DNA of 64,000 nucleotides from Vagococcus carniphilus (lineage in GTDB: Bacteria; Bacillota; Bacilli; Lactobacillales; Vagococcaceae), in the NCBI RefSeq assembly GCF_014397115.1, contig NZ_CP060720.1, forward strand, positions 2,744,001 through 2,808,000, in the 5' to 3' direction. Numbering within the stretch: the stretch's first letter is position 1; the number at the start of each line of letters is the position of its first letter. Shown here in pieces: positions 31,910 to 46,012 of this stretch. Below the pieces are notes generated by a model that ran no database searches, was not told the origin of the DNA, and saw only the letters and a list, made by a program, of their open reading frames with translations. The translations under genes were made by a program, and so were the position numbers.

Positions 31910-32137
31910 TCACTCCTCTCTATAAAGTAATTTCAGAGCACGTACTTGGTTGTTAATCATTAGTAAATTTTCTTCAATTACCTTCAACTGTTCTAGATAA
32001 GGCTGTCTATCTCTTGGGTGGATAACCTTGGTTCTTTTGATAGATTCAAAATATTTAATAGTATCATTTAAACAATTAACAGCCAAATGACAAAAGGTCT
32101 GTTGAGCTGCTTTTTTTATTTCTGAATCTTGACTCAT
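31910..32137 (-). CDS. Small charged hypothetical protein
   Basis: A 75-residue, mostly helical, cytoplasmic protein (NCLNDTIKYFESIKRTK, QLKVIEENLLMINNQVRALK). The ATG overlaps the methyltransferase stop in an ATGA arrangement, so the two are translationally coupled. Nothing recognisable; it resembles the small phage or ICE proteins that accompany modification genes. Confidence 0.6.
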   Translation of the reverse strand: MSQDSEIKKAAQQTFCHLAVNCLNDTIKYFESIKRTKVIHPRDRQPYLEQLKVIEENLLMINNQVRALKLLYREE

Positions 32138-33216
32138 TTTGTTTTCTCCTTTCCATATACTTTAGCAACATTGGACAAAATAAAATCAGCACATGGTAAA
32201 ACAATAGAATTACCTAATGCTTTATACCTGGCTGATTCACTAATTATTTTGTTATCATTTCCGTATTCCGTCCAACCTTCTGGTAGTCCCATTAATCGTT
32301 CACATTCAAGTGGTGTTAATCTTCTAACAAATCCCTCTGATTCCAAGCCATCATGCCAAAAAGCAAAAGTATCAACGGTACCAGCTAAGAGAGTGGGAAA
32401 AGGGTCAGTTGATCTGCCGAAGCTTGAGATAAACCCTTTTTTATTTCCTTCTTTAGCGTAGGTTCGCATTCGTCTTTCTTGAAAAGGGAAGATTTGTATG
32501 CTCCGCCTTGTCTCAATAGAAAGGATTCGATTGTCTTTGGTGGTGAACAACCTGCCTTTGTAGCTAGATTCAATATCCGACTGCATTCCTTCGGTGTTAA
32601 AAAGTATTTTTCTAGCACGGAACTTTCTAAAATCTGCGACGAGAAAGATTCTTCTACGACGTTGGGGCACACCCCAATATTGACTATCAAGGACTCGCCA
32701 ACAGACATCAGCATTTCTCCCTCGCACCATTCCGGCGTTTGCCCATCTATGAGAGGGAGGAATTGGAACTTCGGTTTTAAGGAAGGATTCCAACACGGCT
32801 TTAAAATCCATTCGGTCATTTGATGAAAAAGCTCCCATGACGTTTTCCCAAATAGCGAGAGTTGGATAGTTTCCATCAGTAGCATTCCTCATTTCTTCAA
32901 TTATTCTGATAGCTTCATAAAAAAGGTTCGACTTCTTACCAGCCAAACCTTCACGATTACCAATGGTTGATAGATTCTGACAAGGTGATCTGAAAGTAAT
33001 CATATCAACTGGTGGAATAGAACTACGTTTTAATTTTGTTAAATCACCAAGATGAACCATATTTGGAAACTGACGTTTAGTAATTCTGATTGGGGCTTTT
33101 TCTATTTCACTGGCCCAAATTGGTGTGATGTTGTTTCTTATGGCAGCAAGAGGAAACACACCTATTCCATCGAATAAACTGCCTAGTGTTAAATTTGTTA
33201 TTTGAATCAACTCCAT
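32134..33216 (-). CDS. dcm: DNA cytosine-5 methyltransferase
   Basis: A 360-residue C5 methyltransferase. Motif I is LGSLFDGIG (11-19), motif IV has the catalytic C79 in SPCQNLS, motif VIII-like QRRRRIF, and motif X LGNSIVLP near the C-terminus. It methylates cytosine within an unknown site. No restriction partner with a matching target-recognition gene is adjacent, so it is either an orphan phage-type enzyme or partners with the PD-(D/E)XK-like protein upstream. No convincing ribosome site precedes the ATG. Confidence 0.9.
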   Translation of the reverse strand: MELIQITNLTLGSLFDGIGVFPLAAIRNNITPIWASEIEKAPIRITKRQFPNMVHLGDLTKLKRSSIPPVDMITFRSPCQNLSTIGNREGLAGKKSNLFYEAIRIIEEMRNATDGNYPTLAIWENVMGAFSSNDRMDFKAVLESFLKTEVPIPPSHRWANAGMVRGRNADVCWRVLDSQYWGVPQRRRRIFLVADFRKFRARKILFNTEGMQSDIESSYKGRLFTTKDNRILSIETRRSIQIFPFQERRMRTYAKEGNKKGFISSFGRSTDPFPTLLAGTVDTFAFWHDGLESEGFVRRLTPLECERLMGLPEGWTEYGNDNKIISESARYKALGNSIVLPCADFILSNVAKVYGKEKTK

Positions 33217-33306
33217 TTAAAATTAATTTTCTACAAAAAAAAGACGCTTCCATATTATTAGAAACGTCTTTAAATATTTATAATTCAAAATTGATATCTT
33301 AATTTC

Positions 33307-33768
33307 TTATATATCTTTCTTACGTATAGATTTTTTATTCTCTCCAGTATAATTTCTTAGTGGAAAAATAATAGCACCAGCTATTGTAACAACTACGCTA
33401 AAATATTTTGAAATAGAAAAAATAAATTGAGACAAAGGTGCTATAACATTATTGATAGCATACTCAGAATTCTTTAAATTAATGGCATCTGTTTTCATAT
33501 TAACGAAGCAGTTTATAAAGAAATTTCTTATATAAAAATATGAACATAAAACAATTATTGTAGGAAATAAAGTATACACAAATATAAAAATAATTCGCTG
33601 TGTAAAACTAATTTGATTTCTTTTTAATTTTGTTTGAGGTCGTTCATTATCTACTTCCTGACTTTTCTGTTGTTCGACTTGCTGTGCTTGTTTCTGTTCG
33701 TCTAGTTGTCGTTGTAATTGTTCTAATTTTTTTCTATTTTAGTTTTTTTTATTCTTATTTTTTCCCAT
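33307..33768 (-). pseudogene. Coiled-coil membrane protein with in-frame stop
   Basis: ATG 33768 has a good GGGAG site, but codon 10 is TAA (33739-33741). The same frame then continues with a Lys/Gln-rich coiled coil (KKLEQLQRQLDEQKQ), two hydrophobic segments and a basic tail ending at 33307. The family is unknown. Either the gene is broken by the stop, or an internal GTG near 33579 makes a shorter membrane protein. Confidence 0.55.
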
Positions 33769-33897
33769 GACAATCTCCCAAAATCATTATAACTACACTA
33801 AGTTTTATTTATACAAACATTAATAATTTAAAAATTTTATTTTAGCGTACCATTCTTTATACTTTTTAGAATTGATAATTGTATAAAAAGTTATAAT

Positions 33898-34878
33898 TTA
33901 CCAATCTTTGTCTTTTAAATATCTATTTTCAAACTCTATTTGTTCTTTATAAGAAGAAAGAAGTTTTCGATTTGTTAACAGGGTAAACATCCGAATTTTA
34001 TGTTTTTCATTAATTAGTTTCCCTTTCATCTGAATACTATCAATAGGAAATTCATTTTCTTTCAAACCAAAATTTTCAAGGTTAAGTTTAACGTCTTCAG
34101 GTAAGTAAATAGAGTTATTTAATTCTGAGAGATTAATGAAACGATTTTCATTGATACATTTATTTATTTCATAAGATAATAAATCACTCAATCTAGATGG
34201 AGACTCATTTAAGAGCTCTGGCGAATGCCAGCCAATATCACATCCTGTTGATGAATATGAATAAAAATGTCTATAATCGGTCACAGGCTCATGCGGAACA
34301 ATAGATACATGTTCCTTTAAATACGGAATATTCTTAACAAGAGAAATCCATTTATCACCATAATAATAAATGTTTTGTTTAGTAAATGGACTTTTCAAGA
34401 ATCTAGTATGAACTGAAGATAGAGAAAAAGCTGTTGAATCGAATAAGCATTTATAGTATTCATCTTTATCCAAATGTAGTGGTGCGACATAAAAAGCTTG
34501 AGAACTAGGTTGATTAGCATACTTAAGCAGTATATTATGCTGAAAATCAGTTGCATTTTTAGCCATTTTTCTTAATTTAAAATATAGAGTAGGGTCGTCA
34601 TCTAGACCTTTAACATCTCTAAATTCTCTAATATCTTCAAGTTTACTTCTATTTTTTCTAGCTGAGGCTGGAATGTCACAAATAGGCTTAAGACCTTCAG
34701 ATTTTTTAAATTGAATAAAAAATGAAAACCCTGAATCAAAATATATTTTATCCGCACCAGTTAATTGTTCATCAATATCTAAAAGTCTAAATGGACTATT
34801 TTCAGAAATCCAACCAAAGTAATTTGCAACATCAGCTTCAATCTGTTTTTCTGAAAGATTACTTTTTATTTTATACAT
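33898..34878 (-). CDS. Unrecognised protein, PD-(D/E)XK-like N-terminus
   Basis: 326 residues from ATG 34878, chosen because AGGAG lies 7 bases upstream (an in-frame ATG at 34884 abuts it). The N-terminal 60 residues have the pattern of a restriction-endonuclease fold: E14 in EKQIEADV, D43 in GADKIYF, and Q56-x-K58 in FIQFKKSEG. The rest is mixed alpha/beta with a basic C-terminus and is not recognised. It sits between the methyltransferase and the CBASS-like operon as its own unit. It could be a nuclease effector or restriction enzyme; this is inference. Confidence 0.5.
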   Translation of the reverse strand: MYKIKSNLSEKQIEADVANYFGWISENSPFRLLDIDEQLTGADKIYFDSGFSFFIQFKKSEGLKPICDIPASARKNRSKLEDIREFRDVKGLDDDPTLYFKLRKMAKNATDFQHNILLKYANQPSSQAFYVAPLHLDKDEYYKCLFDSTAFSLSSVHTRFLKSPFTKQNIYYYGDKWISLVKNIPYLKEHVSIVPHEPVTDYRHFYSYSSTGCDIGWHSPELLNESPSRLSDLLSYEINKCINENRFINLSELNNSIYLPEDVKLNLENFGLKENEFPIDSIQMKGKLINEKHKIRMFTLLTNRKLLSSYKEQIEFENRYLKDKDW

Positions 34879-34884
34879 GTACAT

Positions 34885-35355
34885 ACTCCTAACAAAAAAT
34901 ATTTTATTTCAATAATTAAAACACTTATCATTCAATATAAACCAAAAATATATAAAAGTCTAATTAATATCAATATAGAACTATTCATTATATTTACTAA
35001 TCATTAACCAGATTTTAAGTAACATATTATCATTTTTATCCTTTAATAAATATCACTAGGAACAAAAACATTCAAACAACTACTAATGAAACTTGGTAAG
35101 TGATACTGTAACTTTATTAATAAAAAAAGATACTAAATTCATAATGTTTTTATTGAATATTGAAATTAAACTAATATTAAAAAAATTAACAATTATATCT
35201 GATTAGCTTCACCATACACTTTATATTCCACACATTGAAAGAAAAGTTTAGAAAACCGGCATTATTTTCTGAATTAATATAAGTACTAGTTTGTGATTTA
35301 TTATATTGATTCTAACTCTTTTACCGTTACTAACTATATGTTCATCTGCTGAATA
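34885..35355. other. Gene-free AT-rich spacer
   Basis: About 470 bases, very AT-rich, with no convincing frame, ribosome site or repeat on either strand. It presumably contains the promoter of the 326-residue gene. Confidence 0.6.
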
Positions 35356-35360
35356 AAATA

Positions 35361-35389
35361 AAAAAACACTTCAAAAAGTGTTTTTATTA
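35361..35389 (-). terminator. Terminator of the CBASS-like operon
   Basis: AAAAACACTT-CAAA-AAGTGTTTTT hairpin with a T-run, about 155 bases past the last gene of the operon. The bases between hold no gene. Confidence 0.75.
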
Positions 35390-35544
35390 CTATTTTTTAT
35401 TTCAAAATAGCACAATTGATTTGTCTTATGCATTGATGCAAAAAAATTCACATTATAAAGCAACACATAGTTATTAATAACTCATTAGATTTATCATCTT
35501 ATCTTTGTCAAAATTTTTTATCTATCTATTTTTTTAATAAGCAT

Positions 35545-36264
35545 CTAAATAGAATCTAGGGCAGATGCATACGCAAGAATATCTAACGCAGTAACAGTAC
35601 CTTTCTTGCGTAACATTTCATGAAATTGAATAAAGAAGTAAATTAACGATTCATCTTTAGTACTTGATTGGAATTTACTATTTTCAAACGTAAATGTACC
35701 TGCATCTAAACTGCATCCAATTTCTATAACTGATTCCTCATTTTTCTTTAAATTACTATATAAAGAGGTACTATTCATTCCGTCTTTCCAATCACATCTA
35801 GTTGTCAGAATACCCGCAATAATTGATTTAGGTGGATTTCCTTTTTGAACGCCACCTGCATGATATATATCTGCTGAAGTTCTTTTAAGATTTCGCACAC
35901 TCTTAGCCTTGTTTGAGGCATAGGTTAGATGACTAGAATTTAATACTTGTTTGACTTCAAAAACAGCATAAACACTTTCTGCTGGAATATATTTGGCACT
36001 GTTATGTTCAAACACCATAGGACAATATTGCCTATCATAAACGACTATGTCAATTTGATCACTAGTATTTCCCTCATGATCTATTACAATTGCTTTATCA
36101 GATTTATATCTTTTTGGTAGATATGTTTTAAAAAAATCTAACCAACTATCTTCTGTAGCTTCTCCTTTTGTTCCAGAATGAGTAACAGCATCTAAAGTCT
36201 TAAGATTAAAAATCATTTCTTGTTGCATGTTATAAAATAATTCTTTAATATCAACTTTTCCCAT
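35545..36264 (-). CDS. DUF6602-type putative nuclease, candidate CBASS effector
   Basis: A 239-residue protein matching the DUF6602 pattern (DSWLDFFKTYLPKRY, AIVIDHEGNTSDQIDIVVYD, YIPAESVYAVFEVK). The order D72 then E103-x-K105 is that of a PD-(D/E)XK nuclease core, so DNA or RNA cleavage is plausible. It is the last gene of the CD-NTase/Cap2/Cap3 operon, 4 bases after cap3 with a GGGAGG site. As no phospholipase, TIR, HNH or membrane effector is present, it is the best effector candidate. How it would sense a cyclic nucleotide is not visible. Confidence 0.65.
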   Translation of the reverse strand: MGKVDIKELFYNMQQEMIFNLKTLDAVTHSGTKGEATEDSWLDFFKTYLPKRYKSDKAIVIDHEGNTSDQIDIVVYDRQYCPMVFEHNSAKYIPAESVYAVFEVKQVLNSSHLTYASNKAKSVRNLKRTSADIYHAGGVQKGNPPKSIIAGILTTRCDWKDGMNSTSLYSNLKKNEESVIEIGCSLDAGTFTFENSKFQSSTKDESLIYFFIQFHEMLRKKGTVTALDILAYASALDSI

Positions 36265-36268
36265 ATGA

Positions 36269-36739
36269 TCAATCCTCCCACTTCAATTCAGCGTTTTCAA
36301 AATATCCATTTTTCAAAAAACATGTTACTGAAGCTTCTATTTCTTGATTTGAATCAAGCTTTACAATTAATAAGATTAAAAAATTCGCATCAGGTATTTT
36401 GAAATTTATCAAATCATTCATTGTGGAAATATCTGTCTGACTCGGATGAACTTCAAATAATGGATGAGAGTGCCACTCACCAATATAATTAAATCTAGAA
36501 TACTCATGATTTGTTCTCTTAAAAAAATTATGAAAATATCGATTTAATCCTATTGTCCACTCTCTTACAAAAAAAACTTTTGTACCACTTCTTTTCTGAG
36601 TTGTTAATTCTTTGATTTTGAATGAATTATTACCAATTTTTTCAGCTAACAGTGTCCCACCAATTTCATTTTCACCATTTGAAATTAGTTGCTCTTTAAT
36701 CAGTATTTTTATATTACTTGGTATTATTATTTTTAGCAT
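36269..36739 (-). CDS. cap3: JAMM/MPN peptidase (Cap3-like)
   Basis: A 156-residue JAB-domain isopeptidase. The complete JAMM zinc site is present: E25, then H90-x-H92-x7-S100-x2-D103 (WHSHPLFEVHPSQTD). In type II CBASS, Cap3 removes the conjugate that Cap2 puts on the CD-NTase. A GTG at 36751 opens the frame, but ATG 36739 has GGAG upstream and gives a 26-base overlap with cap2. The overlap and shared strand show tight coupling. Confidence 0.88.
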   Translation of the reverse strand: MLKIIIPSNIKILIKEQLISNGENEIGGTLLAEKIGNNSFKIKELTTQKRSGTKVFFVREWTIGLNRYFHNFFKRTNHEYSRFNYIGEWHSHPLFEVHPSQTDISTMNDLINFKIPDANFLILLIVKLDSNQEIEASVTCFLKNGYFENAELKWED

Positions 36740-38459
36740 CTTTTTCTCCACGAATTTGAGTAATTATCTTGTTTATTCTTATTTTCTCTTTATCACTAAT
36801 ATCTGTTTTTACTTTCTCTACTATTTCATTCTTCTCTACATTCAAAGAGATAACTTGCATAGGCTGTTTGAATATCCATTCTTGCTTACCTCCAATGAAA
36901 TATATATCTGAAAGAAACTGAATCGATTTATTGTTTGGTTCTAAAATGCTAAAAATAATTTTTGTCATCCACGAAGTTATAATGCTTACATCAGCATCAC
37001 TTGCGATAAACACTTCATCTCCAATAAATTGTGTATAATTTTGAGTGATTTGGTTTGCTTCATGAGGATTATCTATATAAAAGTTTTTTATTCCTTCTTG
37101 AATTTGAAATGGCGTAGTGTTATTCTCAGGATTATTTTTAGCAATAACACCACCAAGTCCACCAGCAAAAACTTTCCCCCAGACCATTGGCCTATTACTC
37201 ATGATAGAAATATTTGCTAAAACATAAAAAGCCTCGTCATTCGCAGTAGCATCTACTATAATGTCACATCCTGATATCAAGTTAATTAAATTATTATATG
37301 CTTGATTTGATTCTAACGTCGATAACGCCAAACAACTCGTCTGTACAAAAATATCAGTATTAATTTTTTTTAATCTTTTAGACAAAGCATCAACCTTCAT
37401 TTGTCCAAGATGACGAATATCAAGTTCATGTCTTTGAATATTATGACTAAGAAAAACATCATCGTCAACCAGTAGTAAATTTTTAATCCCACTTCTTGCT
37501 AATGAAATACTGATTTTGCTTCCCAAAGAACCCACTCCAACAACTGCTATTTTCGTTTCCTTAGATATTTTCCCTACATAGGGATTTCGCTCCTCACAAT
37601 CATTATCTTTTAATAGAAAAATATCGTAAACTTTTTTATCTATTAAATCTATATAGTATGGCAAAATTACCTGTGAATTACTTAGTAACACAATAATTTT
37701 ATCTAAAGAATTTTTTTGAAGAGCTTTTATCATATATTCTTTTATTTCTTCTATATCCAACTCTTCAAGAAAATCTTCATAGTCGTAAGTTGATTTTAAT
37801 TCTGTTACTTTTTGTAAAAAACCTGGAATATCTCGATATCCAGATAAGAGATTAAATTGTTCATCAGGTAATAATTTAATCTCCTCGTCTTTAATATACA
37901 AACCACTTAATTGATAAACAGCTGAAGAAGTATCCACAAAATTTTCTTTAAAATTTAATACTAAATTACTATTCACTGTCAGAAAAAGCTCAACCATTTC
38001 TTTAGTTAAATATTGAATTCTTTTTTTAAAACGCATCTGTTGACCTAAAGAAAAATTATCTCTAGATGGAACAATTTTTTTATTTGTACCTGTGCTCTTT
38101 GGTCTTTCTGCATCTAATAGAGCATATACACTCTTAACCATGTCAACACCATAAACGACATCAGACCAATTATCAGGCCCCCACTCTAAACAAAGAACAC
38201 CATTAGTATACTGATGACTAGTCCAGCTCACTTCTTTCTCGTTTATTTTAACTGTAATTGGAGAATTAGGGAAAAAACGAGGAAAAATCATTTTTAATGA
38301 ATACAATTTGTCATCAATATCAATATCAAAGTAATAAACTAATAATTCTTCATTTTCTATATTCCAATTAGTGTTTTTTATCCAATCATTTTTTCTTTCA
38401 AGATCATTTAGCAAATCATATTCTTCAATAAATCTCTTATTATTTTCTTCTAACCACAT
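36714..38459 (-). CDS. cap2: E2-E1 ubiquitin-like transferase fusion (Cap2-like)
   Basis: A 581-residue fusion. An N-terminal E2 fold has its cysteine at C90 (NGVLCLEWGPDNW). The C-terminal E1/ThiF adenylation domain has G308-x-G310-x-x-G313, the D332-D333-D334 turn, R343, K355 and D403. In CBASS, Cap2 activates the CD-NTase C-terminus and transfers it to a target, priming cyclase activity. No cysteine exists after C398, so the usual E1 catalytic cysteine is not apparent. It starts two bases after the CD-NTase stop. Confidence 0.87.
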   Translation of the reverse strand: MWLEENNKRFIEEYDLLNDLERKNDWIKNTNWNIENEELLVYYFDIDIDDKLYSLKMIFPRFFPNSPITVKINEKEVSWTSHQYTNGVLCLEWGPDNWSDVVYGVDMVKSVYALLDAERPKSTGTNKKIVPSRDNFSLGQQMRFKKRIQYLTKEMVELFLTVNSNLVLNFKENFVDTSSAVYQLSGLYIKDEEIKLLPDEQFNLLSGYRDIPGFLQKVTELKSTYDYEDFLEELDIEEIKEYMIKALQKNSLDKIIVLLSNSQVILPYYIDLIDKKVYDIFLLKDNDCEERNPYVGKISKETKIAVVGVGSLGSKISISLARSGIKNLLLVDDDVFLSHNIQRHELDIRHLGQMKVDALSKRLKKINTDIFVQTSCLALSTLESNQAYNNLINLISGCDIIVDATANDEAFYVLANISIMSNRPMVWGKVFAGGLGGVIAKNNPENNTTPFQIQEGIKNFYIDNPHEANQITQNYTQFIGDEVFIASDADVSIITSWMTKIIFSILEPNNKSIQFLSDIYFIGGKQEWIFKQPMQVISLNVEKNEIVEKVKTDISDKEKIRINKIITQIRGEKDAKNNNTK

Positions 38460-38461
38460 AT

Positions 38462-39460
38462 TTATTTCCCAAATCCATTTGGACCGTTTGGTTTCAGCGG
38501 CTTATTTGGAAAGTTAAAATTTGTTGATGCATTTTGCTCGCTATATAAAGAATTAGATGAGCTAGTACTTACTGGAAACTCATTACCAAACACTTTCTTC
38601 CAAAGTTTTGTCGACTCTTCACCATCTTCTGTGTCCAAAGCTTGACGAGAAATTATTGCATGTTCTTCAATTTTTTTATACAATGCTTTAAATTGTTCCG
38701 AAGTAATTCCATTTAAAACAGAATTATTAGGAACTCCAGGATCAGGAATAAAAGGAACAATATCCAAAAGAATATTAATTGAATACTTGTCAACCATCGA
38801 TTCAAGAGTTTCAGTAAATAAAATAGCATAATTACTATTATTCTTTGAAATGTTTTCTGCAACCATTAATTCTAAAAGATAACCTTTAGGTCGTTTATAA
38901 ATTGTCGGGTTTTCTCTACGCCACCATTTAAATAGTTTTACAAGAGGCTTATAGCGATAATTATTATTAGTATTGGTGGTTGTAGAGTGTTCAATTTGAC
39001 CTCTAGGGTTTGTAATTAACCATTCGTCTAAATCCCTATCAGCAATATACCAAGTTCCGTCGATACCATATGGTGCAATCACGGGTACAGCGTCCATATC
39101 AACATTAGCTGTTGTTATACCAATAGAACGTGTTTGTTTAGTTATGTTAAAATATTTGTCCTTTAAAACATTATACAAATCGTCTATTACTTCACTTGGA
39201 GAATCACTTAAATCATAATTAGTAACTATAACAACATCTACATCAGGCCTTTTAATTACTCCATTTTGGGCTTTAGGACGAATAGCAGTTTCTCTCCTGT
39301 ATGATCCTGACAACATAGTATCTAAGTGAATATCTTTATAAGTAGTATGATTTTTTAAAAAAATTCTTAAATTAGTGTGAGCAGTTACACAATTACTCTT
39401 TGTAGTCCTACTAGGTTCAATATCAGATAATAATTTTAAAAATTGGGATTGCTTACTCAT
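38462..39460 (-). CDS. cdn: CD-NTase / SMODS nucleotidyltransferase
   Basis: A 332-residue cGAS/DncV-like nucleotidyltransferase. The core is LSGSYRRETA (G52-S53) followed by D73-x-D75 in RPDVDVV and a third acid in the NVDMDAV segment (D121 or D123). It should make a cyclic oligonucleotide on phage infection. The C-terminus is a flexible tail rich in Pro, Gly and Asn (PNKPLKPNGPNGFGK), suited to conjugation by Cap2. ATG 39460 has a GGAGGAG site; the frame opens earlier at TTG 39475. Confidence 0.88.
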   Translation of the reverse strand: MSKQSQFLKLLSDIEPSRTTKSNCVTAHTNLRIFLKNHTTYKDIHLDTMLSGSYRRETAIRPKAQNGVIKRPDVDVVIVTNYDLSDSPSEVIDDLYNVLKDKYFNITKQTRSIGITTANVDMDAVPVIAPYGIDGTWYIADRDLDEWLITNPRGQIEHSTTTNTNNNYRYKPLVKLFKWWRRENPTIYKRPKGYLLELMVAENISKNNSNYAILFTETLESMVDKYSINILLDIVPFIPDPGVPNNSVLNGITSEQFKALYKKIEEHAIISRQALDTEDGEESTKLWKKVFGNEFPVSTSSSNSLYSEQNASTNFNFPNKPLKPNGPNGFGK

Positions 39461-39579
39461 TAAAAACTCCTCCAAACTGACAAATTATATTACACCTGTA
39501 TTATAACATAATAGAATATACAACTTTTATTTTAACTTTCTAATTCAGAATAAGTAAAAAATTTCTTGACCTCTCTTGT

Positions 39580-39597
39580 ACTTCGTTAATAATCTAT
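39580..39597 (+). repeat. 18-bp direct repeat, copy 1
   Basis: ACTTCGTTAATAATCTAT is identical to 46030-46047. The two copies bracket the kinase-helicase region. Flanking bases show weak further similarity. Confidence 0.6.
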
Positions 39598-39703
39598 CAT
39601 CTTACAAAGCAAACTGTATTTATCAGAAATCAAACAATAAAACTTTAAATCTAATTAACAAAACAACAAAAATTTGTTTAATCATAGTATAGATTATGCA
39701 TAA

Positions 39704-39735
39704 AAAAAGATACTCATTGAAGAATATCTTTTTAA
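39704..39735. terminator. Terminator-like hairpin
   Basis: AAAAAGATA...TATCTTTTT with a 12-base loop, between the CBASS promoter region and attR. No gene clearly uses it. Confidence 0.5.
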
Positions 39736-39788
39736 GAATATTAGAACTAGAATTTATTTTAACAGACTCAAATAATTATGCCTGATCA

Positions 39789-39821
39789 GTTGCACTTTGC
39801 ACTTTTTGTGCACTTTTTATT
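39789..39821 (+). repeat. Possible integrase arm sites, right
   Basis: Three overlapping TGCACTTT units, of which TTGCACTTTTTGT (39797-39809) is identical to the left-end copy at 30792-30804. They lie about 100 bases inside attR. Confidence 0.5.
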
Positions 39822-39907
39822 ATTTTTATCTTCATTTATATGATTTAATACTTTACTAAAAACCTTCATATTACTGCATTTGTCTTTATACTCTACACGC
39901 TGAAAAC

Positions 39908-39920
39908 AGAGTGGGAATAA
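39908..39920 (+). repeat. Island attachment site, right
   Basis: AGAGTGGGAATAA repeats the last 13 bases of guaA (30710-30722). The flanking bases differ, so the match is exactly 13 bp. This sets the island at about 9.2 kb. Confidence 0.78.
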
Positions 39921-40014
39921 AGAGCTAACATAATATGAATGGGGAATGCCTATTTAACAGTATTTATGGACATGTAAAACGGACAAAAATGACTTAATTT
40001 AATATGATTCCCTG

Positions 40015-40052
40015 CCAAAAACCCTGCCAAGAAAATTCTTAGCAGGGTTTAT
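40015..40052 (-). terminator. Terminator of the kinase-helicase operon
   Basis: AACCCTGC.AAGAA...TTCTT.GCAGGGTT hairpin with T-rich sequence on the minus strand, just past the stop of the 578-residue gene. Confidence 0.82.
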
Positions 40053-40053
40053 T

Positions 40054-41790
40054 TTATTCAACTTTTCTTAAACTCTCTCTTTCTTCCCTTAACGCTTCCA
40101 AAAGTTCATTTAATATTAAATATTGCATTTTAGCATAACCATTATCAACTAATCCCGGATAACTTCCACCAGTATCCTCCTTTAGAAAATCCTTTAATGA
40201 TTGACGGTCTTCAGGATCTGATAATTCAATATGTTGTACTGCATTTCGATATATTCTTATTTTTAACATTATTTTCTGAAGCTTTGGATAATAATTTTTA
40301 AAATCATTGAAAAAATAATTAGCTCTGTATTTATTTTTCAATGTTTCAAAAAAGAATTTGTTTAAGTTAGTTAGCATAATTTCATAATCATTCTTATTTT
40401 TAACAAATGGTAATCTTTCTAAACTATCTTGGTTTTCATTAATCTCCTCAGAGCTTGCAAGCCAAGCTTTTCGGTTGTTTTTTCTTTGCTCCATATCAAA
40501 AAGATAAAATTCATCTATTATTTTTTTTACATCCATTTCCATATGTTTTTTATTAGTATAAATAGGCAACCCATCTAACAAAACAACTGACTCTAAGTCT
40601 AACTGATTATACTCTTCAATCGTTAAAAATGAACCAACTGAACAACAAGTATTAATGTCTTTATTTGAATTTATGATGATATGTTTATAAAAATCGATAC
40701 AAAAAAATAGTTTTCCATCCGAAACACTCATTGGATAATACTCTGGTAAGTGCGATATTTTTAAGCCTTTATACTTCTTCGCCAGTTTTTCAATTTCACC
40801 TATTCTCAACAAGCCATAGTTAGTCGATATCATTTCACCTGTAAAGAACAATTCTATCTTAATTTTATTATTTAGTTTGTGTTTAAATGTTTCGATTAGT
40901 GAATCTGTGGGAAGTAACGAATCTATCATAGGTACATAAATTCTAACAATATCTTTAGACTTCTCAATAATTTGTTTAAATTCATCATATTCATCACTAA
41001 CATTGTCTTTATCAAATACAACTTCTCTATATTTTTTTACTTTATCGGAATATTCATAATCATATATTTGTTCTTCTAAATTTAAAAACTCTGTAATATC
41101 TTTACTTTGTAAAAACTCGTCATATTCTGTTAGCATATTTAATCGATCAAAAATTAAATAATAGTTTTTTTCACTTTTCTTATCGTAAAAAATCGCTATT
41201 TGTGCCCTTTTATAAAAAACATTAGAATTTTTTATTTCTAACAAATCAACTACAAGTTCGTCTTCTTCATTTTTATTCATTATTCTTTTAGCTTCATAGA
41301 AATTTAAATCTTTTAAATTTGGTCTCTCAATTACCATCTTTATATCTCTTATATTTTTCCCTCTCATATTACGCGAATTAACAAAATTTTCTCTTGAACG
41401 AAAGTAAGTATTAGAAACTCCATCTATAAATATTTTATTTACTTTTTTTATATTTCTAGTGTATTTGTCTTCCTTTAGATACTCTCTTCCTAAATCACTC
41501 AGCATCCCTCTTCTTTTGATAAACTCTTGATGAATTAATTCATTATACGCTACTGTAAATATATTTAAGTCTTCCTCTAATCCCATCAACAATGGGATTT
41601 CTTCTTTTCTTATACCTTGATCAACTAACCTAAGAATTGTATCTTGAATAGATGGTAATGTTCCCGTTTTATTACAAAAACAAGTAATTTCTAGTGAATA
41701 GATAGGGATACCTATTTCAAACACATTTATTAACTCACATGAAGGTAAGTATTCCCACCCAATTTTTTTTATTTCATTAATAATTCCCAT
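40054..41790 (-). CDS. MkoB-like partner of the kinase-helicase (degenerate PLD-like)
   Basis: A 578-residue protein. Residues about 40-110 look like a winged-helix domain (LPSIQDTILRLVDQGI, GMLSDLGREYLK). Residues 270-390 resemble one phospholipase-D half: SDGKLFFCIDFYKH with K360, D366 and N376, then GSF (386-388). The usual HKD histidine is replaced and spacing is off by one, so catalysis is uncertain. The C-terminal 120 residues are helical. Mokosh type I has a PLD-family second gene, which fits; the match is tentative. It overlaps mkoA by 14 bases. Confidence 0.55.
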   Translation of the reverse strand: MGIINEIKKIGWEYLPSCELINVFEIGIPIYSLEITCFCNKTGTLPSIQDTILRLVDQGIRKEEIPLLMGLEEDLNIFTVAYNELIHQEFIKRRGMLSDLGREYLKEDKYTRNIKKVNKIFIDGVSNTYFRSRENFVNSRNMRGKNIRDIKMVIERPNLKDLNFYEAKRIMNKNEEDELVVDLLEIKNSNVFYKRAQIAIFYDKKSEKNYYLIFDRLNMLTEYDEFLQSKDITEFLNLEEQIYDYEYSDKVKKYREVVFDKDNVSDEYDEFKQIIEKSKDIVRIYVPMIDSLLPTDSLIETFKHKLNNKIKIELFFTGEMISTNYGLLRIGEIEKLAKKYKGLKISHLPEYYPMSVSDGKLFFCIDFYKHIIINSNKDINTCCSVGSFLTIEEYNQLDLESVVLLDGLPIYTNKKHMEMDVKKIIDEFYLFDMEQRKNNRKAWLASSEEINENQDSLERLPFVKNKNDYEIMLTNLNKFFFETLKNKYRANYFFNDFKNYYPKLQKIMLKIRIYRNAVQHIELSDPEDRQSLKDFLKEDTGGSYPGLVDNGYAKMQYLILNELLEALREERESLRKVE

Positions 41791-44700
41791 CGCGTAACAC
41801 CTCTATCTTACTTTCACTATTAAACCTATTCATATGAATCAATACATCTTCAAAATAGTTATGTTCTTTTTTAGAAGCCTCTTTCATAAAAAGTGCATTC
41901 CCTACAATGATAATTCTAGATTTCGCTCGAGACAACGCAACATTTAATCTTCTTTGTTCACTTAGAAAACCAATTTTTTTATTCATATTTGATCGAACTA
42001 TACTGTAAAAAACAACATCTACTTCCGATCCTTGAAAAGCATCTACATTCTCTATTACAATTTCTAAATTTTTCCATTCTAAAGAATTAGAAAATATATA
42101 TTTTTCAAGAATTGCTTTTTGTCCATTATATGCAGAAATAATTCCCACTTTTATTTTTTTATCTGTTGGATTCATTTTTTCTAATGTCTTTAATTCTTTT
42201 AAAATTATCTGAGCTTCACAGACATTTGAAAATGACTTAGATTTAGTTTCTTGTTGTTGATTATTACTCAGTCGTTCAGTTGAAAGCCACGCAATCGGTT
42301 CATCAATCCTATAATTCGTTAATCTATCAGTATCTTTAATATCGGTAATGATATCAACATCATCAGTATAAAACACTTTATCAATTAAGTTCGAAATTGC
42401 TGGATGCATTCTAAATTGCTTTGATAAAGTAAGAGTTATTTCTGTCTCTTTTGCTAATGTAAATAGATCTTCAAATAAACTTTCAGATAGTGCATTTTTA
42501 TTTGTATTCTCTAATGTTTTTTCACTAAATTCATTTACTATTGGTGGTAATTGTTTATGATCTCCAACTAAAATCACTTTCTTTCCTTTAGTCATTGGAA
42601 TCAAAATTTCTGGTACAGTAGACTTAGCTGCCTCATCAATGATTACCCAATCAAAAGATAATGAATCCATAATATTATTAGATGCTATCCCTGTACATGT
42701 TGAAGCTATTATAGAAGCCTTATCCAATAATAATTGATCAAAGCTTTCTAAGGAATCCAAACTTTTATACCACTTAGCTATACTTTTAGCTGTATCTTTT
42801 TGATTAGATTCATTTTTCTCAATTTTTTCATACTCTTTATAGAAATCTGTCACTTCAAAATCTGAAGCACTCATTTTTTCTAAAATTTCTTCTAATTCTT
42901 CATCTATATCTAAATGATTACTACTAATATAGGTAAAGGATTTATTTTTTATTGAATCTGTCCATAATTTTGTTTGATTCATAATTTTATTTGATTCAGA
43001 TTCTTTGGATATTTTATCACTGTTACCCACTCTAACTAATAAGTCTTTTTCAAAATATTTTTTTAATTTATTAAAAATATGATCAACTGCTACATGAGAT
43101 TGAGAAGCTAATAAAATTTTAGAGTTTTTTTCTTGTTTTTTTATTTGATAAATCAATTCATTAATCACTGTAGACTTCCCTGTTCCAGGTGGTCCTTGTA
43201 TCAAAAAAATATCCTGTGTTCCTAGGGCTTTTACAACGGCTTCTTTGTTTAAATCATCCATTTCAGCATTAGCAAAAATAATCTTTTCTGTCGGTTTCTT
43301 TACAGATGCAATCGAAGGGTCAACAATAATATTCAACAAATTTTTATTTTTCGATTTACCTAAACTCAAAGTGTCTAATGCTCTTCTTGCTCTCCTAGTA
43401 ACAATTAAATTTTCAGAGTAATCTATACCAAACTTTCCTGACTCCGAAAAATTTTGGTCATCAAAATCTAGTTCAGGAGAAAAAATCACTCTGTTAGCAA
43501 CTAATTTCTTGATTTCCCCTACTTTCATTTGTTTCCTTACCTTATCATTATTCATGAATGTAATCTTTTTACCAATGACTATATCATCTAGATCATCAAT
43601 TTCATCAATCTCAAAATAGTAATATCCAGTTTCTATGTTCTTTTCTAACCCTGAATAATACCCTATGTTTTTCTTTTTATGTAAATAAGACTCTTCTTTC
43701 TTTATTTTTTCTGTCCACAATCCAATTAAACGATCTTCATTTTTTTTGTTGTTCTTCTCCTTCACAAAATTCCTGTATTCGTTATCAACTTTTTCCATAA
43801 ATTTATTTAAAAATACTATATCTTTCTTTAATACTTTAAAATTAAATAAGTCAATATTGGAATTTATTGGAAAAGCTCTTTTAATTTCATTTTCTTGCTG
43901 AGAATAATCAGGGATACTGTTAGCATGCTTCAATATTAGGGCACCTATATTTTTATCAAACACACATTTATACTTTATAAGCCCTGAAATTAAATGATAT
44001 TCGTTATTCTTGGTTCTATAAATAAAATAGTCTGAGCTATTTTTTATATATTGTTGAGCTTCTTCACGTCTAGGAAAATCTAATACACCTAATTTGTGTA
44101 AACTTTCGACCACTGAATCAGTAACTTTCAAGTGCAATGTCGTATCCTTGTTTTCAATTAATGAAATTTGGTGGTCAATATCATTTATAAAAGTTTCAAT
44201 AGCCGTAAAGCGTGAACTGATTACTTTATTTGTTGCTTTCATTAATATTCTTTTTATATCACTATTAACATTCAAATTTTGAATTTGCTCTTCTAATCCA
44301 TCTTCGGTACTTTTAGGATGTTTTTTTGATAGCATGAATAATAAAATACATCCTAAAGAATATATATCAGAATAGCTCGAAACCCTCTCCCTATCCCTCT
44401 GTTCTGGTGATGAGTATAAAACATTATGATAATGATTTACTGTCGTTGTTTCTTCAAAAATAAGGCTTCGTATCTTACTAATGCCAAAATCTATTATTTT
44501 GATATCTTTATCACCAATATCACTTGTTATTAGAATATTAGATGGTGATAAGTCTCTATGAATAATTTCTAAGTCATGAGCATGATTTACACCTAATAGT
44601 ATATCTTTGAAAATTATCAAAGTTGCTAATATTGAATCATTATTTGATTCAATATACTTTTCTAATGTAACACTTCCACCCAAATTTTCTAAAATAATAT

Positions 44701-44962
44701 AATAAAAATCTTCCTCTTCTCCTGAGTCAAAGATTGTAACAATATTTGGATGATTTAATAAATTTAAAGATTTAATCTCTCTGTTAAATAATTCTGATAT
44801 TTCATCCATTTCCGGTTGTTTAAAAAGCGCTTTTAACACATAAACTTTTTCGTCCTCGATATTCTGAATTAAAAAAATTTTAGAATCTATCGACTTAGAA
44901 ACATGGATTTCTTTCAATATCAAATATTGTCCAGCAACAATTTTGTTTTTTTCTAACGACAT
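41777..44962 (-). CDS. mkoA: Protein kinase - SF1 helicase fusion (Mokosh MkoA-like)
   Basis: A 1061-residue fusion. The N-terminal Ser/Thr kinase has K44, E62, HRDLSPSN (135-142) and DFG (158-160), but the ATP glycine loop has no glycines (KEIHVSKSIDSK). A linker (about 270-560) precedes an Upf1/DNA2-type helicase: Walker A GPPGTGKST (590-598), DEAA (776-779), GDHKQLPP (800-807), QFRMHPAI (849-856), DAFQGSE (974-980) and LNVALSRAKS (1006-1015). In Mokosh type I this combination protects against phages by a route not fully worked out. It has an XRE regulator 78 bases upstream. Confidence 0.8.
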   Translation of the reverse strand: MSLEKNKIVAGQYLILKEIHVSKSIDSKIFLIQNIEDEKVYVLKALFKQPEMDEISELFNREIKSLNLLNHPNIVTIFDSGEEEDFYYIILENLGGSVTLEKYIESNNDSILATLIIFKDILLGVNHAHDLEIIHRDLSPSNILITSDIGDKDIKIIDFGISKIRSLIFEETTTVNHYHNVLYSSPEQRDRERVSSYSDIYSLGCILLFMLSKKHPKSTEDGLEEQIQNLNVNSDIKRILMKATNKVISSRFTAIETFINDIDHQISLIENKDTTLHLKVTDSVVESLHKLGVLDFPRREEAQQYIKNSSDYFIYRTKNNEYHLISGLIKYKCVFDKNIGALILKHANSIPDYSQQENEIKRAFPINSNIDLFNFKVLKKDIVFLNKFMEKVDNEYRNFVKEKNNKKNEDRLIGLWTEKIKKEESYLHKKKNIGYYSGLEKNIETGYYYFEIDEIDDLDDIVIGKKITFMNNDKVRKQMKVGEIKKLVANRVIFSPELDFDDQNFSESGKFGIDYSENLIVTRRARRALDTLSLGKSKNKNLLNIIVDPSIASVKKPTEKIIFANAEMDDLNKEAVVKALGTQDIFLIQGPPGTGKSTVINELIYQIKKQEKNSKILLASQSHVAVDHIFNKLKKYFEKDLLVRVGNSDKISKESESNKIMNQTKLWTDSIKNKSFTYISSNHLDIDEELEEILEKMSASDFEVTDFYKEYEKIEKNESNQKDTAKSIAKWYKSLDSLESFDQLLLDKASIIASTCTGIASNNIMDSLSFDWVIIDEAAKSTVPEILIPMTKGKKVILVGDHKQLPPIVNEFSEKTLENTNKNALSESLFEDLFTLAKETEITLTLSKQFRMHPAISNLIDKVFYTDDVDIITDIKDTDRLTNYRIDEPIAWLSTERLSNNQQQETKSKSFSNVCEAQIILKELKTLEKMNPTDKKIKVGIISAYNGQKAILEKYIFSNSLEWKNLEIVIENVDAFQGSEVDVVFYSIVRSNMNKKIGFLSEQRRLNVALSRAKSRIIIVGNALFMKEASKKEHNYFEDVLIHMNRFNSESKIEVLRDGNY

Positions 44963-45040
44963 TTTATTACTCCTTTTTCCAACTAGTTTTCTAACGCTAG
45001 CAGCAATTCTTTTATGCTATGTAAAACTTTATTTATCTTC

Positions 45041-45313
45041 TCAAATATTCATCGAATCTAATAGTTCATTAACTATCTCCGAATCACTTACACGACTATT
45101 AATCAATAAATAGAAAAAGTCATCATTAGACATTTGAAGCCCATTAATTCTCCTTTCTAAAGTAGGTAAAGTTAAATTAAACCTTCCATTCTCTAATTTG
45201 TATATATATTTAGGGTCTAATCCTGCTAACTCTGAAAGTCTTTCTTGACCTAATCCTTGTTCAATTCTAAGTTTTTTTATCTTTTTTATTACTTCACTAT
45301 TTAGACCACTCAT
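45041..45313 (-). CDS. XRE-family helix-turn-helix regulator
   Basis: A 90-residue DNA-binding protein. The HTH spans about residues 10-60 (KLRIEQGLGQERLSELAGL then YIYKLENGR). It lies upstream of the kinase-helicase gene on the same strand and probably controls that operon. It is similar to restriction-modification controller proteins in size. Confidence 0.85.
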   Translation of the reverse strand: MSGLNSEVIKKIKKLRIEQGLGQERLSELAGLDPKYIYKLENGRFNLTLPTLERRINGLQMSNDDFFYLLINSRVSDSEIVNELLDSMNI

Positions 45314-45452
45314 AAACTCACCTCTATAATTGTATTAACTCAATCGTAGGTTTGTTAAGTATAAATAGTAAGTTGCAAATAAAGCTATTTATATTGAAAA
45401 AATTCATCTCATAACTATAAATATATTATAGTATAATTCAGGAGGAGTTAAT

Positions 45453-45935
45453 ATGATTACTAAAAAAACAGTTATGTTATTTTTAATGTTTTATTTTTTA
45501 CTTATCGGAGGTTGTTCCCTGTCTAACAAACCAAAATCACTTGAAGAGACAATCAAAAACAAAGCTTTTACATATGAGCTACTTGATACAAACGGTAAAA
45601 CTATCAACGATAAATGTGGTGTTATTTATTTTCCTTATCATGATAAATATTTTTATAATACCGGCACTAATAGCTTAGAAAAAGCAATAGAATAATTTAA
45701 TGATCAAACCAAAGAAAAAGGGGAACTATCCAAAAGAGAGAAAAATGTAAGTAAAGATCAAAACTATATTATTACTCAAGGTACAATTACATTAAGTAGA
45801 GGGTTTAGTACTAATAAAATAGGTGCTAATTTATATAATTTGAAGTAAATGATGATGGAACAATTACTGGAGACTGGGATACTTTCATTGCTCAAAGCAG
45901 TTCTAGCGGATACATCGATTGCAAAGTAATATCAA
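45453..45935 (+). pseudogene. Decayed lipoprotein gene
   Basis: ATG 45453 with an AGGAGG site encodes a lipoprotein signal (LLIGGC lipobox) and about 80 residues, then an in-frame TAA at 45693. The same frame continues (FNDQTKEKGELSKREKN...ITLSRGF) to a second stop near 45846, where a frameshift would resume EVNDDGTITGDWDTF. This is a small secreted lipoprotein broken at two points. Confidence 0.72.
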
Positions 45936-46012
45936 AAAAACTAGTGAAATTTGTTGTACAGCGGTTATTTTTTTGATTCAAAATTACATATTTCAAATCA
46001 TACAAAAAAGTG

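Follow-up and report, generated by a model that had tools for sequence, protein, structure and literature searches.

The window analysed in this work is a stretch of 64,000 nucleotides from the genome of Vagococcus carniphilus (contig NZ_CP060720.1, positions 2,744,001 to 2,808,000). Its minus strand carries the genes mkoA and mkoB (Table 1), which make up a complete operon of the Mokosh type on a branch of its own, and in which the chemistry of the phospholipase D (PLD) half has probably been replaced by an RNase of the HEPN type. Mokosh type I consists of MkoA and MkoB. The window operon shares with type I a fusion of a kinase and a UPF1-like helicase, followed by a partner with winged-helix and PLD folds, and an overlap of the two genes, seen in 12 of 16 other pairs. 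It differs in that the HKD motif is missing, that MkoB has an extra C-terminal domain with an Rx4H motif, and that MkoA lies on a separate branch.

MkoA was matched by the PADLOC model PDLC03920 over residues 7-1053 (E-value 1.7e-209, 697 bits) and by the Pfam families Pkinase (9.7e-35), AAA_11 (3.6e-52) and AAA_12 (3.7e-46), the latter two as for a UPF1-type helicase of superfamily 1 (SF1). NCBIfam TIGR00376 (IGHMBP2-like) was matched at 3.7e-79, but under the cut-off of the model. In an alignment of 17 MkoA, Walker A, Walker B and motifs III to VI of the helicase were all found, and the kinase kept the VAIK-type K44, E62 of helix alpha-C, D137 of HRD, N142 and D158 of DFG. The nucleotide loop after strand beta-1 holds no glycine; in the closest relatives, from genomes G503 and G599, it is likewise degenerate, with a single glycine in each. 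An initial annotation, drawn up from the DNA letters, had described an HRD/DFG kinase fused to an Upf1/DNA2-type helicase, a 14-base overlap with the partner gene and a glycine loop devoid of glycine, and open reading frames, Pfam and alignment agree with it on these points. Its proposal that one or both catalytic sites are altered is supported for the PLD site but not for the kinase beyond the glycine loop, and an inactive MkoA kinase was rejected in that form because the five catalytic residues are intact.

An MkoB homologue lies directly downstream of mkoA, as in Mokosh type I, and PDLC03922 aligned to its residues 22-317 with 92 bits. The model search suggested in the initial annotation thus found both proteins in the PADLOC Mokosh families, and the type I relationship claimed there is supported by these scores and by a gene order like that of the other pairs. 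The winged-helix-like segment also claimed there was matched by PF24409 weakly (1.4e-4 over residues 52-110; 22.3 of 27 bits, below the curated cut-off). At the HxKxxxxD site, alignment A4 placed YYPMSVSD, with the histidine replaced by Y351, the lysine by P353 and the aspartate kept as D358. The absence of the histidine had already been noted in the initial annotation; K360, also named there, lies after the motif aspartate and is not the lysine of HKD. The corresponding sequences are NNKILLVD in G503 and KLPTLVIN in G599, and in the three proteins (the trio) the histidine has become Y, N and K, while the lysine is lost in two and the aspartate in one. Of the 14 MkoB that do not belong to this branch, 12 retain HxKxxxxD followed by S-[FY]-N-[WF], and the 12 aligned in A8 have H, K and D without exception; the long-branch outliers G147 and G091 are without it. 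Alignments A2 and A5 put the HKD region of canonical MkoB wrongly, and no conclusion rests on them. Since HxKxxxxD is missing from the window MkoB, the system was filed as a Mokosh variant and not as a canonical member: the fold of the type I PLD nuclease is there, its motif is not.

Residues 262-400 of MkoB are a PLD-type fold without the catalytic pair. In a profile-profile comparison with hhalign, the PLD region of the trio aligned to the PLD domains of 12 canonical MkoB with a probability of 95.6 and an E-value of 1.1e-8 over 102 columns, confirming the PLD similarity without which the initial annotation would have fallen. The C-terminal domain, used as control, gave a probability of 0.3, by which a second PLD half was ruled out. 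The G503 MkoB also matched the PADLOC PLD family DrmC (7.9e-6). A Foldseek search with the MkoB model gave TrmBL2 as the only matches at E-values of 0.001 or lower, PLD enzymes following from 3.3e-3. Foldseek's own list was re-scored by the structure comparison VIA, and the structure prediction suggested earlier for the PLD half resulted in Z scores of 9.4-10.3 to PLD folds: TrmB 2f5t (Z 10.3, rmsd 3.0, 107 aligned), NucT 6ehi (10.0, 3.6, 113), FAM83B 5lzk (9.9, 3.6, 113), Nuc 1byr (9.8, 3.1, 112) and Zucchini 4gen (9.4, 3.2, 111). MITD1 reached only Z 6.8. TrmB/TrmBL2, FAM83B and MITD1 are non-catalytic PLD folds, sharing with the window MkoB a PLD fold without a working HKD; none of them is known to belong to a defence operon.

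Table 1. Features of the mkoAB operon and its surroundings, in window positions
Feature	Position	Strand	Basis
mkoA, Ser/Thr kinase-UPF1-like SF1 helicase fusion, 1061 amino acids	41777..44962	-	Open reading frame; PADLOC MkoA; Pfam Pkinase, AAA_11, AAA_12
MkoA kinase domain, residues about 7-262	44177..44944	-	Alignment of 17 MkoA
MkoA SF1 helicase, residues about 465-1040	41843..43570	-	Walker A K596, DEAA D776/E777, RRLNVALSRAK 1004-1014
mkoB-like partner, 578 amino acids, 14-base overlap with mkoA	40054..41790	-	Open reading frame; PADLOC MkoB PDLC03922 1.1e-26, PDLC03923 6.4e-9
MkoB winged-helix-like region, residues about 45-110	41461..41658	-	PF24409; helices in model
MkoB degenerate PLD domain, residues about 262-400	40591..41007	-	hhalign, VIA
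MkoB site of lost HxKxxxxD, YYPMSVSD, residues 351-358	40717..40740	-	Alignment A4
MkoB additional all-helical domain at the C-terminus, HEPN-like, residues about 414-578	40057..40551	-	Alignment A1 (5 members); AlphaFold2 pLDDT 78.6, pTM 0.79
Invariant Glu482, end of preceding long helix 466-482	40345..40347	-	Alignment A1; AlphaFold2 model
Rx4H motif R515-N-A-V-Q-H520, end of helix 502-518	40231..40248	-	R, H invariant 5/5
Small helix-turn-helix gene, 90 amino acids, 78 bases upstream of mkoA, same strand	45041..45313	-	HTH_19 2.8e-10
Inverted repeat followed by T residues	40010..40060	-	By eye
Four-gene CBASS operon	35545..39475	-	
328-amino-acid open reading frame	33898..34884	-	
Gene resembling a DNA C5-methyltransferase	32134..33216	-	Its sequence alone
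guaA	29157..30722		

The C-terminal domain of MkoB, residues about 414-578, has no counterpart in canonical MkoB. The initial annotation, which saw a divergent Mokosh, was right about the relationship, but its picture misses this domain, whose core is more conserved in the branch than any other part of MkoB. Five carriers were found: the C-termini of the window, G503 and G599 MkoB, a stand-alone protein of 208 amino acids on plasmid 2 of Enterococcus faecium DO (L004, 6869-7495), and the C-terminus of a 723-amino-acid AAA_35-type ATPase of genome G367 (L003/L080, 6666-8837). The five-member profile matched 3 of 17 MkoB, exactly its own members, and leave-one-out profiles still found each of the three (3.2e-37, 4.9e-48 and 1.6e-38). 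All three were also recovered when the profile was built from just the two non-Mokosh members (1.6e-35 to 3.1e-24). Sequence identity of the other members to the window domain is 20-32%. Ten columns are invariant in 5/5 members (E, F, P, Y, R, H, L, D, G, Q), including E482, R515 and H520, and the residue after the motif arginine is N or H in every member (R-[N/H]-x3-H). In simulations, ten invariant columns included an invariant Rx4-6H with a probability of 0.0017, or 0.017 with one R and one H given; the motif was chosen after being seen, so these figures are a guide only. The MkoA trio has 275 invariant columns and no Rx4-6H among them. When the three MkoB are compared, invariant positions are most frequent in the C-terminal core (479-578), where they reach 24%, against 11.6% in the PLD-like region and 15.8% in the N-terminal region.

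Besides the window, genome searches found strong carriers of the domain only in G503, G599 and G367, and plasmid searches gave no further protein with it beyond the one of E. faecium DO plasmid 2; plasmid hits in Tolypothrix, Anabaena and Aminobacter matched the N-terminal part of the query only. Weak profile matches in G189, where the sequence looks glycosyltransferase-like and the matched stretch lacks the motif, and in G522 and G244, where short fragments with stops were matched, were dropped as chance. The E. faecium copy sits just upstream of an AbrB-like/Doc-type toxin-antitoxin pair. It was considered as a Mokosh remnant; the 1.7 kb around it, translated in three frames, held no credible upstream similarity to MkoB. 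In G367, the ATPase frame starts 7 bases after a 1992-amino-acid gene with DUF4011, SF1 helicase and MTES_1575-nuclease parts (PADLOC PDC-S37, 1267 bits), and the two are possibly a two-gene defence system of their own. Some kilobases off lie McrC- and McrB-like genes, which carry DUF2357/PDDEXK_7 and MrcB_N domains.

The comparison set consisted of 16 other MkoA/MkoB-like pairs, 17 with the window: five full-length kinase-helicase loci (G503, G593, G599, G029 and G147), three partial loci with a partner gene and without a recognisable kinase in the alignment (G673, G727 and G091), and eight plasmid loci (H2-H8 and H11) among 60 listed of 508 records. The partner gene follows MkoA directly in 16 of 16 other pairs, overlapping it in 12 and not in 4 by the starts used. 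The MkoA tree separates the window, G503 and G599 from the remaining 14 sequences at a support of 100/100. Their branch has a support of 99.8/100 in a tree of 26 helicase domains, which includes nine from other helicases. The 17 MkoB show three states: three have the added domain and no HKD histidine, 12 have HxKxxxxD and no added domain, and two have neither. If the trio is a clade, which the trees permit, this amounts to a single event and not to three. In the outlier pair of G147 (L054, 7156-12608), MkoA keeps HRD while its DFG reads SFR, and the 591-amino-acid MkoB is without HxK; going by these motifs, both catalytic halves seem altered.

Among 29 genomes of the family, the window MkoB was present in one, the genome of the window itself. 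The MkoA model, at E-values up to 1e-80, hit 43 of 398 class genomes and 16 of 398 phylum genomes, mostly by the helicase part only. G503 and G599 MkoB are 26-28% identical to the window MkoB. Further members of the branch were sought by single-protein scans of genome contigs, seeded by short exact peptide patterns, which confirmed none; IMG/VR scans with two alignments and two single proteins, seeded in the same way, confirmed no relative, and phage searches gave no match.

HEPN domains are described in PMC3710099 as all-alpha, with an arginine followed by N, D or H, the motif at the end of helix 3, an acidic residue in helix 2 and an insert between helices 2 and 3. AlphaFold2 was applied to the added domain alone, and model positions were converted to MkoB numbering by adding 404. 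Helices were predicted at residues 414-437, 449-458, 466-482, 490-500, 502-518, 526-540 and 551-576, with R515 in the last turn of its helix, H520 in the loop after residue 518 and E482 at the end of helix 466-482. Taking 466-482 as helix 2, the predicted model fits all of these topology features, and Rx4-6H with a polar N, D or H after the arginine is present in 5/5 members. On the basis of motif, predicted topology and context, the added domain is quite likely a HEPN domain.

A number of results weigh against this assignment and against the replacement reading built on it. The acidic motif was not seen in its Ex3[KR] form. Family libraries searched with the five members gave nothing convincing (best E-values 0.047 for Pfam, 0.073 for NCBIfam and 0.013 for PHROGs), the best family match of the whole E. 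faecium protein was Mer2 at 0.0091, PADLOC gave only weak matches of the domain, to PDC-M63A (0.0028) and CARF_HEPN (0.0065), and a sequence search of the PDB with the domain found nothing relevant. Foldseek listed no match of the domain at E-values of 0.001 or lower (best 1.2 in PDB and 0.66 in BFVD); the HEPN toxin 7ae6 ranked 48 in the PDB list at 5.5, which is noise level. With VIA, 7ae8 had Z 3.7 amid unrelated bundles, and the best score, Z 8.2, belonged to a designed binder. The start of the domain, residues 431-478, is poorly conserved with 8.3% invariant positions. The full-length AlphaFold2 model of MkoB is poor overall (pLDDT 56.2), with block means of 63-86 over residues 271-360 and below 45 beyond. 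The branch is known from three members, in 3 genomes of the class and three families. Finally, the trees settle neither the deeper order nor the root, so that the loss of HKD from an active ancestor is inferred.

In the most serious alternative, neither the pseudo-PLD nor the C-terminal domain is catalytic. MkoB, resembling TrmB in its winged helix and PLD fold, would then serve as an adaptor that binds nucleic acid or has a regulatory role, and the kinase and helicase of MkoA would do the work. In favour of this, the fold searches did not confirm the C-terminal fold as HEPN. TrmBL2, itself a winged-helix/PLD-fold protein, is the sole Foldseek match at E-values of 0.001 or lower, and the dead folds TrmB, FAM83B and MITD1 are among the best structural matches. 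In PMC3710099, some HEPN domains are also taken to be RNA binders only. Those considered inactive binders are, however, the ones without conserved polar residues (PMC3710099), and all five divergent members share the Rx4H pair and the acidic residue, as one would expect of a catalytic site. An adaptor of this kind is regarded as unlikely. Still less probable is a divergent Mokosh type I in which other residues of the PLD half carry the activity and the C-terminal domain is an accessory. The PLD fold and D358 are kept in the window, but the histidine is replaced in every member of the trio, with further losses of lysine and aspartate, and the alignment showed no shared alternative residue set. 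A decaying, non-functional Mokosh with worn-out kinase loop and PLD site, as the glycine-free loop, the missing HKD and the low G+C content of the stretch might suggest, is very improbable, since both frames are open with a tight overlap, the kinase catalytic and helicase motifs are kept, and the same state recurs in three families at an MkoB identity at which neutral decay would have erased it.

In the preferred reading, a Mokosh variant with a HEPN-type RNase in place of PLD chemistry, MkoA would supply the sensor and the motor, as it does in other systems of Mokosh type I. It would engage phage or foreign nucleic acid, process it and hydrolyse ATP, the kinase acting as a gate. Its bound partner MkoB would then be released or dimerised. 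The catalytic histidine of the PLD half, and in the window also the lysine, is gone, and this half is thus probably a scaffold. Single-motif PLDs and HEPNs both work as dimers, and the pseudo-PLD may join two HEPN domains; MkoA would unleash the HEPN dimer by way of the winged-helix and pseudo-PLD parts of MkoB. R515 and H520 together with E482 are predicted to form a metal-independent RNase site, and the HEPN pair would cut RNA and stop phage growth, possibly along with the cell. The data establish the gene layout, the families of the two proteins, the lost HKD, the conserved new domain and the separate branch, whereas the HEPN fold, the RNase and anti-phage activities, the dimer scaffold, the trigger and the role of the kinase are inferred. 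We lean slightly towards the view that MkoB is an exchangeable effector socket, in which the PLD was retired in place as a dimerising scaffold and a HEPN RNase, of a domain family matched by none of the Pfam models tried, took over.

The mechanism of Mokosh is given as unknown in PMC12926258 and as degradation of viral transcripts in PMC11291487. In the CoCoNuT family of UPF1-like helicases, the next gene typically encodes a winged-helix protein of elongated shape whose C-terminal effector varies, being HEPN in Types II and III-A and two PLDs in Type III-C; operons of UPF1-like helicases may also carry a Vsr nuclease (PMC11090510). In cnuH-cnuE of CoCoNuT Types II and III (PMC11090510), as in the window operon, a gene for a UPF1-like helicase precedes one for a winged-helix protein, whose C-terminus holds the effector, a putative one in the window. 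The window operon differs in the kinase fused to the helicase and in a dead PLD and a HEPN-like domain within one protein. McrB and McrC families, a criterion of CoCoNuT Type II, were absent from the rows listed for the 8 window proteins scanned (33898-45313). The operon fits the CoCoNuT plan, uniting a spent PLD with a HEPN-like domain in a single chain. According to PMC11090510, HEPN enzymes cleave RNA and nothing else; under the socket view, RNA destruction would then be what the Mokosh kinase-helicase chassis calls for. Fusions of HEPN to SF1 helicase, Vsr nuclease and winged helices (MTES_1575) and to STAND ATPases have been listed, as has one to a PLD nuclease (SAV_2148) in which the HEPN is marked inactive (PMC3710099, Table 1). 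These two families thus share with the window the joining of HEPN, putative in the window, to PLD or to SF1 helicase and winged helix; in SAV_2148 it is the HEPN that is marked inactive (PMC3710099), whereas in the window MkoB the PLD is the part without its motif. No description of a Mokosh bearing HEPN was present among the literature matches listed, most subscription papers being outside their scope, and the three papers found to contain both 'Mokosh' and 'HEPN' use the two words in unrelated places.

The helix-turn-helix gene upstream of mkoA is a possible regulator; it was not sought in the relatives, whose lists of open reading frames started at 100 amino acids. The CBASS (cyclic oligonucleotide-based antiphage signalling system) operon lies 0.6 kb downstream of mkoB, and is type II-like by its E1-E2 and JAB genes, with a NucC/DUF6602 endonuclease as effector. 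The inverted repeat just past the mkoB stop, which a pattern scan did not list, looks like a terminator parting mkoAB from CBASS. On the Nostoc plasmid pNPM2 (L060, 7977-18368), Mokosh is followed on the same strand by one small open reading frame and then genes for a DncV-like nucleotidyltransferase, E2/UBC, Mov34 and HNH, an order matching that of the window, and on Aliarcobacter pAFAEC (L063, 7134-12663) a DUF6602 gene directly precedes mkoA. Mokosh and CBASS parts may travel together. The 328-amino-acid reading frame, without a convincing family match in library scans, could be a restriction partner of the putative C5-methyltransferase.

The G+C content from 33001 to 46000 is about 27-30%, compared to 32-38% in the 5 kb on either side, which suggests that the DNA between guaA and about 46 kb was imported; other low-G+C stretches occur in the window, e.g. 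at 53-56 kb. An empty island site was sought in 5 relatives of the genus, of which only G404 has the right-hand flank, with the guaA side not adjoining there. No copy of the guaA 3' end was found among 20 listed of at least 60 repeat families.

The putative replacement of the PLD by a HEPN RNase suggests that defence machines can swap the weapon and keep the sensor. The MkoB of this branch would be a case of a fold outliving its active site, beside its likely replacement enzyme in one polypeptide. The Rx4H domain is modular, being common to a Mokosh variant and to another ATPase in a defence-like neighbourhood, and the variant allows a direct test of whether the kinase-helicase half of Mokosh commands RNA cleavage.

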